A DNA stretch of 64,000 nucleotides from Candidatus Dichloromethanomonas elyunquensis (GTDB taxonomy: Bacteria; Bacillota; Desulfitobacteriia; Desulfitobacteriales; Syntrophobotulaceae): assembly GCA_001515265.1 (NCBI GenBank), contig LNDB01000013.1, positions 1 to 64,000 of the forward strand. Reading direction: 5' to 3'. A model generated the notes under the pieces. The model was not told the origin of the DNA, made no database searches, and saw only the letters and a list, made by a program, of their open reading frames with translations. Within the stretch, counting starts at the first letter, position 1, and every line of letters starts with the position of its first letter. A program made the position numbers and the translations under genes. Of this stretch, positions 43,345 through 46,475 are shown piece by piece.

Positions 43345-43410
43345 AACCTCTTCATTCTTTTTTCACAGAAGTCTCAGTTTAGAAATATGATAAGAAAAGG
43401 AGGAATGCAT

Positions 43411-43614
43411 ATGATCATAAAAAGAGATTCCTTTTCAAAAGAAGATTTATGTTTACTTCTTAGTGAAACCACTGTGAAGATCATTCAAAACATTGAAGAC
43501 CGCAACGGGAAACTCAAATCTTTTGACCTAAATTTCAACTTTGAAAGATCCCGTTATACCCTTACCGAAAGAGACATAGGTTCCCTTCGTTTCAGAATCA
43601 GCGAGGAGCAATGA
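43411..43614 (+). CDS. Small hypothetical protein
   Basis: A 67-residue soluble protein beginning MIIKRDSFSKEDLCLLLSET and ending SLRFRISEEQ. I start it at 43411 because GGAGG lies 7 nt upstream; an in-frame ATG at 43387 has no ribosome-binding site. It has its own terminator directly after the stop, so it is probably a real, separately transcribed gene. I do not recognise the family and see no membrane segment or catalytic motif. Confidence 0.65.
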   Translation: MIIKRDSFSKEDLCLLLSETTVKIIQNIEDRNGKLKSFDLNFNFERSRYTLTERDIGSLRFRISEEQ

Positions 43615-43619
43615 GTGAG

Positions 43620-43648
43620 AAAGCCTACACTTTTTGTTGTAGGCTTTT
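43620..43648 (+). terminator. Intrinsic terminator after the small gene
   Basis: AAAGCCTACA and TGTAGGCTTTT form a strong stem of 8-10 bp around an 8-nt loop, with a short T-run on the plus strand and an A-run on the other side. Confidence 0.8.
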
Positions 43649-43763
43649 ACCATATTAAATAAATTGGAACAAATTACCATACTATAAAACAAGGAAAATC
43701 CTTGAAATCCCTGATATAATAATACAAACAATTGTAAAACCGCTTAAATTTAGGGGGACCAAA

Positions 43764-44318
43764 ATGGAAAAAATTTTCAAAGCCATAGACCTTGCAGCGA
43801 AGACCCATAAAAATCAGTTTCGGAAAGGTAGCAATACCCCATATGTCGCACATCCCTATGCAGTCGGAATGATTCTCCTAAAAGAAGGCTGTTCAGAAGA
43901 TGTTGTTGCTGCGGGTATCTTGCATGATACGATTGAGGATACTATCATCAATCTTGATTATTTGAGAAATAAATTTGGTTTCAAGGTTGCCGATATCGTA
44001 GAAGAATGCTCTGAACCGGATAAATCCCTTCCCTGGGAAGATCGAAAAATACAGACTATTGAATCTCTGAAAATTGCCACTCCCATTGTTAAAGCCGTCG
44101 CCTGCGCAGACAAGTTACATGATATTTTCTGTATGTTAGAGGATTATGAGGTTTGTGGTGAAAAACTCTGGGAAAGGTTTACCCGCGGCCGGGAAAAACA
44201 GGAATGGTACCATAAAGGCCTTGTCCAAAGTTTTCTGCAGCCACCTATTCATGAAGATTTTAAAAAGTTATTTCTAACTTATGCCAAAGCGGTGAGCGAC
44301 CTCTTTGACAAAAAATAG
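43764..44318 (+). CDS. HD-domain hydrolase, stand-alone SpoT/MESH1-like
   Basis: A 184-residue metal-dependent phosphohydrolase related to the hydrolase half of RelA/SpoT. The HD motifs are THKNQFRKGSNTPYVAHPYAVGMILL, AGILHDTIEDT and AVACADKLHDIFCM; the FRKG and H...HD...D pattern matches ppGpp hydrolases and MESH1-like proteins. No synthetase, TGS or ACT domain is present. The actual substrate cannot be told from sequence. It starts with AGGGGG 7-8 nt upstream and ends before a repeat-rich region. Confidence 0.85.
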   Translation: MEKIFKAIDLAAKTHKNQFRKGSNTPYVAHPYAVGMILLKEGCSEDVVAAGILHDTIEDTIINLDYLRNKFGFKVADIVEECSEPDKSLPWEDRKIQTIESLKIATPIVKAVACADKLHDIFCMLEDYEVCGEKLWERFTRGREKQEWYHKGLVQSFLQPPIHEDFKKLFLTYAKAVSDLFDKK

Positions 44319-44335
44319 CTGTTCTGTTTTTTATC

Positions 44336-44363
44336 CTTGTTATTTGTTAAAGCAAATAACAAG
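44336..44363. repeat. Perfect 11-bp inverted repeat after the HD hydrolase gene
   Basis: CTTGTTATTTG and CAAATAACAAG flank a 6-nt centre just downstream of the HD gene. No T-run follows on either strand. It stands 14 bp before the next terminator hairpin. Confidence 0.6.
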
Positions 44364-44376
44364 TTATACACTATAA

Positions 44377-44416
44377 GAAAAAACCGGTTTTCCGTTAAGG
44401 ATTAACCGGTTTCTTC
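44377..44416. terminator. Terminator of peptide module 2, also serving the HD gene
   Basis: On the minus strand GAAGAAACCGGTT and AACCGGTTTTTTC form a 13-bp stem (one G-U) followed by TTATAG; the second arm contains a TTTTTT run. It begins 10 nt after the stop of the 34-residue peptide. From the plus side it lies after the HD gene and may stop that transcript too. Confidence 0.8.
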
Positions 44417-44426
44417 TTGTTTGGGA

Positions 44427-44531
44427 TCACTTCAGCAAAACATTTATACCAAAAGTTATGAGAATGATCAGTAATAATATACCTAGCTTAATCATGGAAA
44501 TTCGCAGTTGATGTTTTAGTTCATTGATCAA
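44427..44531 (-). CDS. Short membrane peptide, copy 2 (34 residues, TTG start)
   Basis: A 34-residue peptide: basic start INELKHQLRISMIK, then a hydrophobic helix LGILLLIILITFGINVLL and a terminal Lys. AAGGGGG lies 8 nt upstream of the TTG. It aligns without gaps from its first residue with the peptide at 44707-44796: L5, K6, L9, R10, K15, L20, I22, L24 and T26 are identical and most others are conservative. Its leader and terminator are also related to those of copy 1. The size and layout resemble type I toxin or small regulatory membrane peptides. Function is unknown. Confidence 0.6.
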   Translation of the reverse strand: MINELKHQLRISMIKLGILLLIILITFGINVLLK

Positions 44532-44621
44532 GACCCCAACCCCCTTGGAATTTCTTTTATAAACAGAAAAATGTATAAAATGAGATTTTCACGGGGTCAG
44601 GATTTTTCATGGGTTAATTTC

Positions 44622-44627
44622 AGTATA
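44622..44627 (-). promoter_or_regulatory. Possible -10 element of peptide module 2
   Basis: TATACT on the minus strand lies 4 nt before the shared leader block AAATTAACCC. No convincing -35 is found at 16-18 nt. Confidence 0.35.
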
Positions 44628-44659
44628 TCTTCTGCTGAAAACATCAAGATTGTCCTCAT

Positions 44660-44693
44660 GAAGAAACTCGCTGGAGGTTTTGCGAGTTTCTTC
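44660..44693 (-). terminator. Terminator of peptide module 1
   Basis: GAAGAAACTCGC and GCGAGTTTCTTC form a perfect 12-bp stem around a 10-nt loop, beginning 13 nt after the stop of the 29-residue peptide. The outer GAAGAAAC...GTTTCTTC part is shared with the terminator of module 2. Confidence 0.75.
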
Positions 44694-44706
44694 TATTTAC
44701 CGCTAA

Positions 44707-44796
44707 TTATTGGTCCATGGTTAAGAGTAAAATAATCAAAATTAATATCGCTTTGAGAATGGCAACGCGCAATAAGCGTTTTAACGTTTTCAACAT
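44707..44796 (-). CDS. Short membrane peptide, copy 1 (29 residues)
   Basis: A 29-residue peptide starting at ATG 44796: a basic amphipathic start MLKTLKRLLRVAILK followed by a hydrophobic run AILILIILLLT and ending MDQ. The ribosome-binding site is AAAGGGG 7 nt upstream. An upstream CCCTTACCCC can pair with GGGGTTAAGGG, which covers this site. The peptide aligns end to end with copy 2. It is flanked by a possible promoter and a dedicated terminator, so it forms its own transcription unit of roughly 220 nt. Function is unknown; a membrane-acting peptide is the likely class. Confidence 0.65.
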   Translation of the reverse strand: MLKTLKRLLRVAILKAILILIILLLTMDQ

Positions 44797-44875
44797 CCCT
44801 TAACCCCTTTCAAATGTATGATTTAACGTCATAAAAGAGGATCCTGAAGTTTTTTCTCGGGGTAAGGGTTAATTT

Positions 44876-44905
44876 ATTGTATGCCTTGGAGCTGCGGATT
44901 GTCCA
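44876..44905 (-). promoter_or_regulatory. Possible promoter of peptide module 1
   Basis: TGGACA at 44905-44900, an 18-nt spacer and TACAAT at 44881-44876 each differ from consensus by one base. The shared leader block AAATTAACCC begins a few nt downstream. Confidence 0.5.
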
Positions 44906-44933
44906 TATACCGATCTTTATTTAATGATAAACT

Positions 44934-46475
44934 TCAATAACTGTCAACTTCCCTGTCCAGTGCCCTGTACTGCAGGGATTCGGCAAGATGTTCCACTTTT
45001 ATTTCCCTGGAATCGGCCATATCCGCTACTGTTCTGGCAACTCGCAATATCCGGTCATGGGCCCTGGCGCTGAAAAAATTTTTCTCGAATATCTTTTTTA
45101 GGAGGGACTCGCCAGTCCTGTCCAAGGCGCAGACCTCCTTGGTCTCTCGACCTGTCATCTCGGCGTTAGTCCTGCTGGATTCAAATCTTTCCCATTGCTT
45201 TTCTCTGGCCTTCTGTATACGTACTTTGACAGACTCTGAATTTTCCCTCTTCGGGTCTTTTCTTTGTTTTAATTCCTCGAAACTGATCCTAGGAACTTCC
45301 ACCTGAAGGTCAAAACGATCGAGCAGGGGCCCCGATACCTTGCGCCGGTAGTTATTGATCTGGAGCGGGGTACAGGTACATTGTCTCCCATTATCCCCCA
45401 GAAATCCGCACGGACAGGGGTTCATAGAACCGATTACACTCACCCTGGCGGGAAACTCCAACCTGCCTCTTAGACGTATTAACGTCAATTTCCTGTCTTC
45501 CAGCGGCTGGCGGAGGGATTCCAGCACTTCCCTTGAAAATTCGGGCAGCTCGTCAAGAAAGAGTATCCCATGGTTGGCCAGAGATAGCTCTCCCGGGCGG
45601 AGTTTCTGCCCGCCGCCGATAATCCCTGCTACTGTGGCTGTATGGTGGGGACTGCGAAAAGGCCTTGCAGTCATCAGCCTGCCCTCTTCCTGAAAAATCC
45701 CTGCCAAACTGTATAATTGGGTAACTTCTAAACTTTCTTCAGCCGTCAAGGGAGGAAGGATTCCTGAAAAAGCTCTTGCCAACAGCGTTTTTCCCGAGCC
45801 AGGGGGACCAACCATAATAAGATTGTGTCCTCCCGAAGCTGCGATTTCCAAAGCCCTTTTAGCCTGAAATTGTCCATGGACATCCGACCAGTCCACCCTC
45901 TGTTTTTCAGGGGTTGTTGCCTTTTCAGCAGACGGCACTGCTGTAAATTCCAGTTCCCCGTTAAGAATCCGGACAAGCTCCTGCAACACCGCTGTCCCAT
46001 CACTTTTTATCTCAGAAACAAGACGGGCTTCAGCAAGGTTGGGTTGGGGGACTACTAACGCATAATCTTCGTCAAGTCTCTTCAAGCTCAACGCCATTGT
46101 TAATACCCCCGGGACCGGCCTCAAAACTCCTTCCAGCGAAAGTTCCCCGGTAAATACCAACCTGTCGGTTGACTCTCCATTTACCTCCTTCATGGCTGCA
46201 AGTATGCCGATAGCGATTGGCAGATCAAAACCCGTACCTTCTTTACGCAAATCGGCAGGAGCAAGATTGACGGTAATTCTTTGTAAAGGAAATTGAAATC
46301 CTGAATTTTTAAGTGCAGACCTAACCCTGTCTTTCGCTTCTTTTACCGCAGTGTTGGCAAGTCCCACAATTTCGAAAGCGGGAAGTCCGTTGGAAATATC
46401 TACCTCAACCCTTACAAGCTGAGCATCCAATCCCCCAACGGCCATCCCGCAAACCGATGCAAACATTCTCTTCAC
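44934..46475 (-). CDS. comM: ComM / YifB family Mg-chelatase-like AAA+ ATPase
   Basis: In transformable bacteria ComM is a helicase that extends recombination joints. The N-terminal Lon-like domain (about 1-170: LVRVEVDISNGLPAFEIVGLANTAVKEAKDRVRSAL) is followed by the AAA+ core with Walker A MVGPPGSGKTLLARAF near 220, Walker B GILFLDELPEFSREVLESLRQPLED and a C-terminal cysteine-rich loop GSMNPCPCGFLGDNGRQCTC. The length of 513 is standard. dprA, its usual neighbour, is about 18 kb away here, beyond the accessory block. Confidence 0.95.
   Translation of the reverse strand: MKRMFASVCGMAVGGLDAQLVRVEVDISNGLPAFEIVGLANTAVKEAKDRVRSALKNSGFQFPLQRITVNLAPADLRKEGTGFDLPIAIGILAAMKEVNGESTDRLVFTGELSLEGVLRPVPGVLTMALSLKRLDEDYALVVPQPNLAEARLVSEIKSDGTAVLQELVRILNGELEFTAVPSAEKATTPEKQRVDWSDVHGQFQAKRALEIAASGGHNLIMVGPPGSGKTLLARAFSGILPPLTAEESLEVTQLYSLAGIFQEEGRLMTARPFRSPHHTATVAGIIGGGQKLRPGELSLANHGILFLDELPEFSREVLESLRQPLEDRKLTLIRLRGRLEFPARVSVIGSMNPCPCGFLGDNGRQCTCTPLQINNYRRKVSGPLLDRFDLQVEVPRISFEELKQRKDPKRENSESVKVRIQKAREKQWERFESSRTNAEMTGRETKEVCALDRTGESLLKKIFEKNFFSARAHDRILRVARTVADMADSREIKVEHLAESLQYRALDREVDSY

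Follow-up and report, generated by a model that had tools for sequence, protein, structure and literature searches.

Two tandem units between an HD hydrolase gene and comM

The window, the whole 64,000-nucleotide stretch of DNA analysed here (contig LNDB01000013.1), comes from the one metagenome-assembled genome in which the units occur, that of the uncultured anaerobic bacterium Candidatus Dichloromethanomonas elyunquensis. A gap of 615 bp (44319-44933) separates the stop codon of a plus-strand gene for an HD-domain hydrolase (HD_4, SpoT-like; 43764-44318) from the stop codon of comM on the minus strand, and a 75-aa ORF (43387-43614) precedes the HD gene. The initial annotation placed two tandem minus-strand units in this gap, and the sequence confirms them: unit A spans 44905-44660 and unit B, adjoining the HD gene, 44627-44375. 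The parts it listed (a common leader start, an ACCCCG(A/T)GAAAA block, a G-rich Shine-Dalgarno (SD) sequence, a short peptide and a hairpin) are present in both.

Unit A carries a sigma-A-like promoter site, TGGACA-18-TACAAT (44876-44905, minus strand), with 10 of 12 consensus matches and a score of 10.58, a score that the window as a whole attains 0.28 times per kb per strand. Its leader (44797-44875), delimited by the sequence and the alignment with unit B, contains AAATTAACCC (44875-44866) and ACCCCGAGAAAA (44863-44852), and its SD, AAAGGGG (44810-44804), lies in a region reading AAAGGGGTTAAGGG. Peptide A, 29 aa with a net charge of +4, starts at the ATG at 44796 (44707-44796) and reads MLKTLKRLLRVAILKAILILIILLLTMDQ; it is assigned from the ORF and its codon-position signature. 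A terminator-like hairpin with a perfect 12-bp stem (44660-44693; inverted repeat I6 and fold) begins 13 nt past the stop codon.

In unit B a -10-like TATACT (44622-44627, minus strand) was found without a good -35, and the promoter scan gave no match there. The leader (44532-44620), again delimited by sequence and alignment, contains AAATTAACCC (44620-44611) and ACCCCGTGAAAA (44597-44586), and the SD, AAGGGGG (44546-44540), lies in a region reading AAGGGGGTTGGGGT. Peptide B, an ORF aligned with peptide A, has 34 aa and a net charge of +3, starts at a TTG at 44531 (44427-44531) and reads MINELKHQLRISMIKLGILLLIILITFGINVLLK. The terminator-like hairpin AAGAAGAAACCGGTT...AACCGGTTTTTTCTT (44375-44418; fold and inverted repeat I1), with a 15-bp stem, begins 8 nt past the stop codon. 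Thus, the hairpin spacing of 10-13 nt given in the initial annotation holds for unit A and is too long for unit B. The hairpins themselves have stems in both the fold and the inverted-repeat analyses; as terminators they lack a separate U-tract and received no score in a simple terminator scan. In both units it is the 3' arm that is rich in U. Because the unit A hairpin is symmetric and its 3' arm is rich in U whichever strand is transcribed, it could also end plus-strand transcripts coming from the unit B side.

TACAAT of unit A ends directly before AAATTAACCC and TATACT of unit B one base before it. Because the -10-like element ends only 0-1 base upstream, AAATTAACCC probably straddles the transcription start. 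Farther upstream, both units carry GGACAATC (44904-44897 in A, 44655-44648 in B), at a distance from AAATTAACCC that differs between them (29 nt in A, 35 nt in B) and overlapping the -35 in A; it is either a regulator site or a chance occurrence. A 15-nt repeat, identical at 14 of 15 positions, is common to the peptide A frame (44760-44774) and the 3' part of comM (45035-45049). It encodes LRVA in frame in both and is probably due to chance.

Both peptides are small and hydrophobic (<60 aa) with a predicted transmembrane segment. Their second halves are strongly hydrophobic (mean Kyte-Doolittle 2.4-2.5) and most of their charged residues are N-terminal, in the first half. A tandem pair of related, cationic peptides with some 30 residues each could also represent leaderless bacteriocins or secreted modulin-like peptides. 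We consider this very unlikely, since no transporter or immunity gene lies beside the peptides, the flanks being the HD hydrolase gene and comM, and the two genes end in separate hairpins instead of forming one operon. Their second half is moreover continuously hydrophobic, like a transmembrane helix.

Duplication and protein-level constraint

Units A and B align locally with a score of 65, where shuffles average 25.7 (z 9.6); none of 1000 dinucleotide shuffles reached it. The semi-global alignment (z 11.4) was likewise matched by 0 of 1000. Taken separately, the leaders align with a z of about 4 and the coding sequences with a z of about 4.5. Ungapped, the peptides reach a BLOSUM62 score of 52, compared with an average of 2 after shuffling (P = 5e-5), and the gap-free identities from the start codon reported initially (L5, K6, L9, R10, K15, L20, I22, L24 and T26) are exact. 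The distance from ACCCCG to the start codon is 67 nt in A and 66 nt in B; the core of the unit has therefore been kept almost without indels.

Across the 28 codons compared, the two frames are identical at 11, 21 and 10 of the first, second and third codon positions. Codon shuffles expect 12 identities at position 2, and 21 was reached with P = 0.0002, while positions 1 and 3 are not significant. Synonymous sites are saturated (pS 0.77, against pN 0.42); these codon-position, pS and pN figures come from a comparison of two sequences. Because position 2 is kept far more than positions 1 and 3 and synonymous change is saturated, the pattern points to protein-level constraint on the peptides; the original view that both units are related is supported. 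The sequence comparisons give good support to reading A and B as true duplicates that go back to an old tandem duplication and have been constrained at the protein level.

The leader and hairpin have been kept as well as the ORF, as would be expected if the units were non-coding RNA repeats giving sRNA- or attenuator-type transcripts in which the small ORFs are incidental. The codon-position pattern and the gap-free amino-acid similarity from the start codon argue against this, as do the properly spaced SD in both units and the lack of an Rfam family at the gathering score. We therefore regard a purely non-coding role as unlikely.

Predicted SD masking and resemblance to type I toxins

In both units, folding predicts a helix of 9-11 bp between a conserved C-rich block of the leader and the SD region of the same unit. 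The predicted helix of unit A joins CCCUU.CCCC (44859-44868, minus strand; centroid fold) to GGGG..AAGGG (44797-44807), and this 3' strand covers the SD and continues as far as the start codon. In unit B, AUCCUGACCCC (44593-44603) would form an 11-bp helix with GGGGUUGGGGU (44533-44543). On the full transcript, most SD bases are paired with the first 40 nt, with a probability of ~0.8-0.87 in A and 0.84-1.0 in B. Compared with 32 other leaders of the window, unit A ranks third and unit B first for long-range masking, 2/32 and 0/32 of the control leaders reaching their respective values. The folds are also stable: none of 200 shuffles is as stable as unit B (z -3.5), and unit A is more stably folded than 198 of 200.

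Shuffling the leaders at constant dinucleotide content weakened the duplexes only modestly (P 0.07 and 0.17), and the units' own leader-SD duplexes (-17.6 and -19.5 kcal/mol) are little better than the crossed ones (-18.8 and -16.4 kcal/mol). For these reasons the masking stands as a prediction and not as a covariation proof; since A and B differ by one base in pairing register, column-by-column covariation of the helix is not claimed. SD masking in both units is nonetheless a reasonable prediction from the folding models, and the predicted leader-SD pairing is new relative to what was first noticed at this locus. A masked SD on the toxin mRNA is frequent, though not universal, in type I toxin-antitoxin systems, and by prediction both units have this feature.

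The closest known design is that of zorO/orzO and zorP/orzP of E. coli O157:H7, where toxins of 29 aa are encoded in tandem and the 5' UTR represses translation of its own mRNA by masking the RBS (PMC11264685, PMC8309996). Compared by design, the units share with zor/orz the tandem similar units, a membrane peptide of about 29 residues and the 5' UTR masking, here predicted. They differ in that no Orz-like antisense RNA was found for A and B, in that their leader is ~70-90 nt with the masking strand near the 5' end, and in that the charges of the peptides lie mostly in the N-terminal half. No sequence family in common with zor/orz was detected, the Pfam and NCBIfam models remaining unmatched.

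In Gram-positive bacteria, type I toxins are usually small hydrophobic peptides (PMC6563280), and control of BsrG and Fst includes SD sequestration (PMC6563280, PMC8309996). Peptides A and B resemble BsrG, Fst and toxins of the C. difficile CD2517.1, CD2907.1 and CD0956.2 type as small hydrophobic Gram-positive peptides with one transmembrane helix. The C. difficile-type toxins are 30-56 aa long with a hydrophobic N-terminus and a lysine-rich C-terminus, whereas the charges of A and B are mostly N-terminal. In addition, the Gram-positive type I toxins have known antisense RNAs, and none was detected for the two units. The E. coli peptides of the ShoB, TisB and Ldr type have 26-35 aa and one hydrophobic helix; their antitoxin RNAs are known, and the ldr genes also occur in tandem. 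Peptides A and B would resemble them in size and single helix, with no significant match to a family model.

More broadly, searches of Pfam, NCBIfam, PHROGs, PADLOC and PDB sequences gave no match of the peptides above the curated or usual threshold, the best being Pfam Sigma_reg_N (E 0.078; 13.7 bits against a cut-off of 26.3), and Rfam gave no family for the units at the gathering score. "Undescribed", as the peptides were first called, thus holds for the protein-family libraries searched.

Type I toxin-antitoxin systems by definition require an RNA antitoxin. The promoter scan found no plus-strand antisense promoter above background within the units, and no convincing complementary RNA gene was found in the genome, where complementary stretches sit inside coding genes. 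The leader complement at G000:C1:149305, considered as a trans antitoxin, was rejected because it lies inside a 612-codon ORF (E 0.27). The units share the anatomy of type I toxins, but since the class requires an RNA antitoxin and none was found, their membership in the type I class is not established. The likeness to type I modules proposed in the initial annotation is strengthened by the predicted SD masking; an antisense RNA or antitoxin was not identified.

We give about even chances to the reading of A and B as a pair of type I-toxin-like membrane peptides, most similar in design to the E. coli zor tandem, for which we infer transcription, membrane insertion, toxicity and a trigger that lifts the masking. 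Each paralogue would give rise to a separate short mRNA of ~210-245 nt that ends in a hairpin, and would encode a peptide that is cationic in its N-terminal half and has one hydrophobic helix. By folding back on the SD region, the 5' leader would leave the full-length mRNA poorly translated, and the peptide would be made only once the leader had been processed, displaced or outrun during transcription. The peptide would then insert in the cytoplasmic membrane and, in excess, depolarise it. The duplication, the codon-position pattern, the predicted leader-SD pairing, the stable folds and the unit A promoter speak for this toxin-like reading, as do the size, charge and hydrophobic second half of the peptides and the zor/orz precedent for a tandem self-repressing design. 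Against it stand the failure to find an antisense promoter, a complementary RNA gene or a homologue in any relative searched, the missing -35 of unit B, and the small advantage of the units' own leader-SD duplexes over shuffled and crossed ones.

Distribution and meaning of the pair

Searches with tblastn, using peptide A in 61 relatives and peptide B in 41, returned only noise, and the matches inspected lay in unrelated contexts. Units A and B alone were recovered by the leader pattern, applied to 74 genomes from the order, and by covariance model R1, applied to 83 from the class and 398 from the phylum; the weak R1 matches (E 0.02-0.9) were dismissed as relatives, none having a unit-like arrangement of SD and peptide. 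For a two-sequence peptide profile run on the 398 phylum genomes, the short-frame and top-scoring matches were inspected and none was unit-like. Scans of a species-level genome collection with the peptide pattern and the leader-SD pattern gave no real relative, and 15 pattern matches there were all unrelated. No convincing relative was found among the viral contigs, plasmids and phages searched. A 561-bp blastn search in the class gave four short matches only, all within larger ORFs. Most weak matches were rejected after being read in their DNA context; this reading covered all but the lower-scoring profile matches, the long-frame tblastn matches and a 38-nt plasmid match. Two-sequence queries of 29-34 aa have a limited reach, and distant relatives may escape them.

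The initial annotation had named a lack of homologues in close relatives as a result that would refute it, and this is what the searches gave: none of the other genomes searched, the same-genus one included, yielded a recognisable copy. As the searches turned up no other copy, "family" does not stand for a conserved group and here means two paralogues in one genome.

In the only same-genus genome, whose comM is 82% identical, comM lies directly beside the 75-aa ORF without the units there. Relative to that genome, the extra block here consists of the HD hydrolase gene and both units (window 43615-44933), which were therefore gained here or lost there. No direct repeats flank the block as marks of insertion. 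Relatives of the HD hydrolase at ~75% identity were found in a single further genus of the family, with other genes as neighbours; the remaining genera searched gave no match that close. The protein is a patchily distributed small alarmone-type hydrolase. A link of the units to it was rejected, as its homologues have no units adjoining.

Occurrence in a single genome and absence from the site in the same-genus genome would also fit relics, or a duplication confined to the lineage that serves no function today. Such a reading is highly improbable, because the two frames remain open, each with its SD and start codon, despite saturated synonymous sites.

The next most likely reading, a tentative one, is that the peptides are non-toxic small membrane regulators, single-helix peptides that bind and tune a membrane protein or sensor and are kept scarce by SD masking until the leader unfolds, for example through temperature, ribosome stalling or a trans sRNA. 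Protein-level constraint and masking fit this equally well, and so does the failure to find an antitoxin. However, there is no conserved partner gene, the HD hydrolase relatives of the other genus occur without such peptides, and a regulator acting on a core membrane protein would not usually be missing from all relatives. Unlikely, in our judgement, is a lineage-specific membrane-peptide pair controlled by its own leader alone, acting as a cis riboregulator that hides and exposes the SD, an antitoxin-free counterpart of type I toxins, which would have arisen or been acquired within the lineage.

Together, our results identify units A and B as paralogous genes for membrane peptides, an orphan pair whose SDs are predicted to be masked and a candidate that is ordinary in kind. 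Genes so small often escape annotation, and no relevant paper on type I toxins with Dehalobacter was found among the open-access papers searched. If functional, the units would add an orphan SD-masked membrane-peptide pair in an anaerobic Firmicutes lineage that is probably Dehalobacter-like. The combination of duplication, protein-level constraint and leader masking could guide searches for type I-like modules without sequence relatives, and the units could be used to test whether such peptides are controllable by the leader alone.
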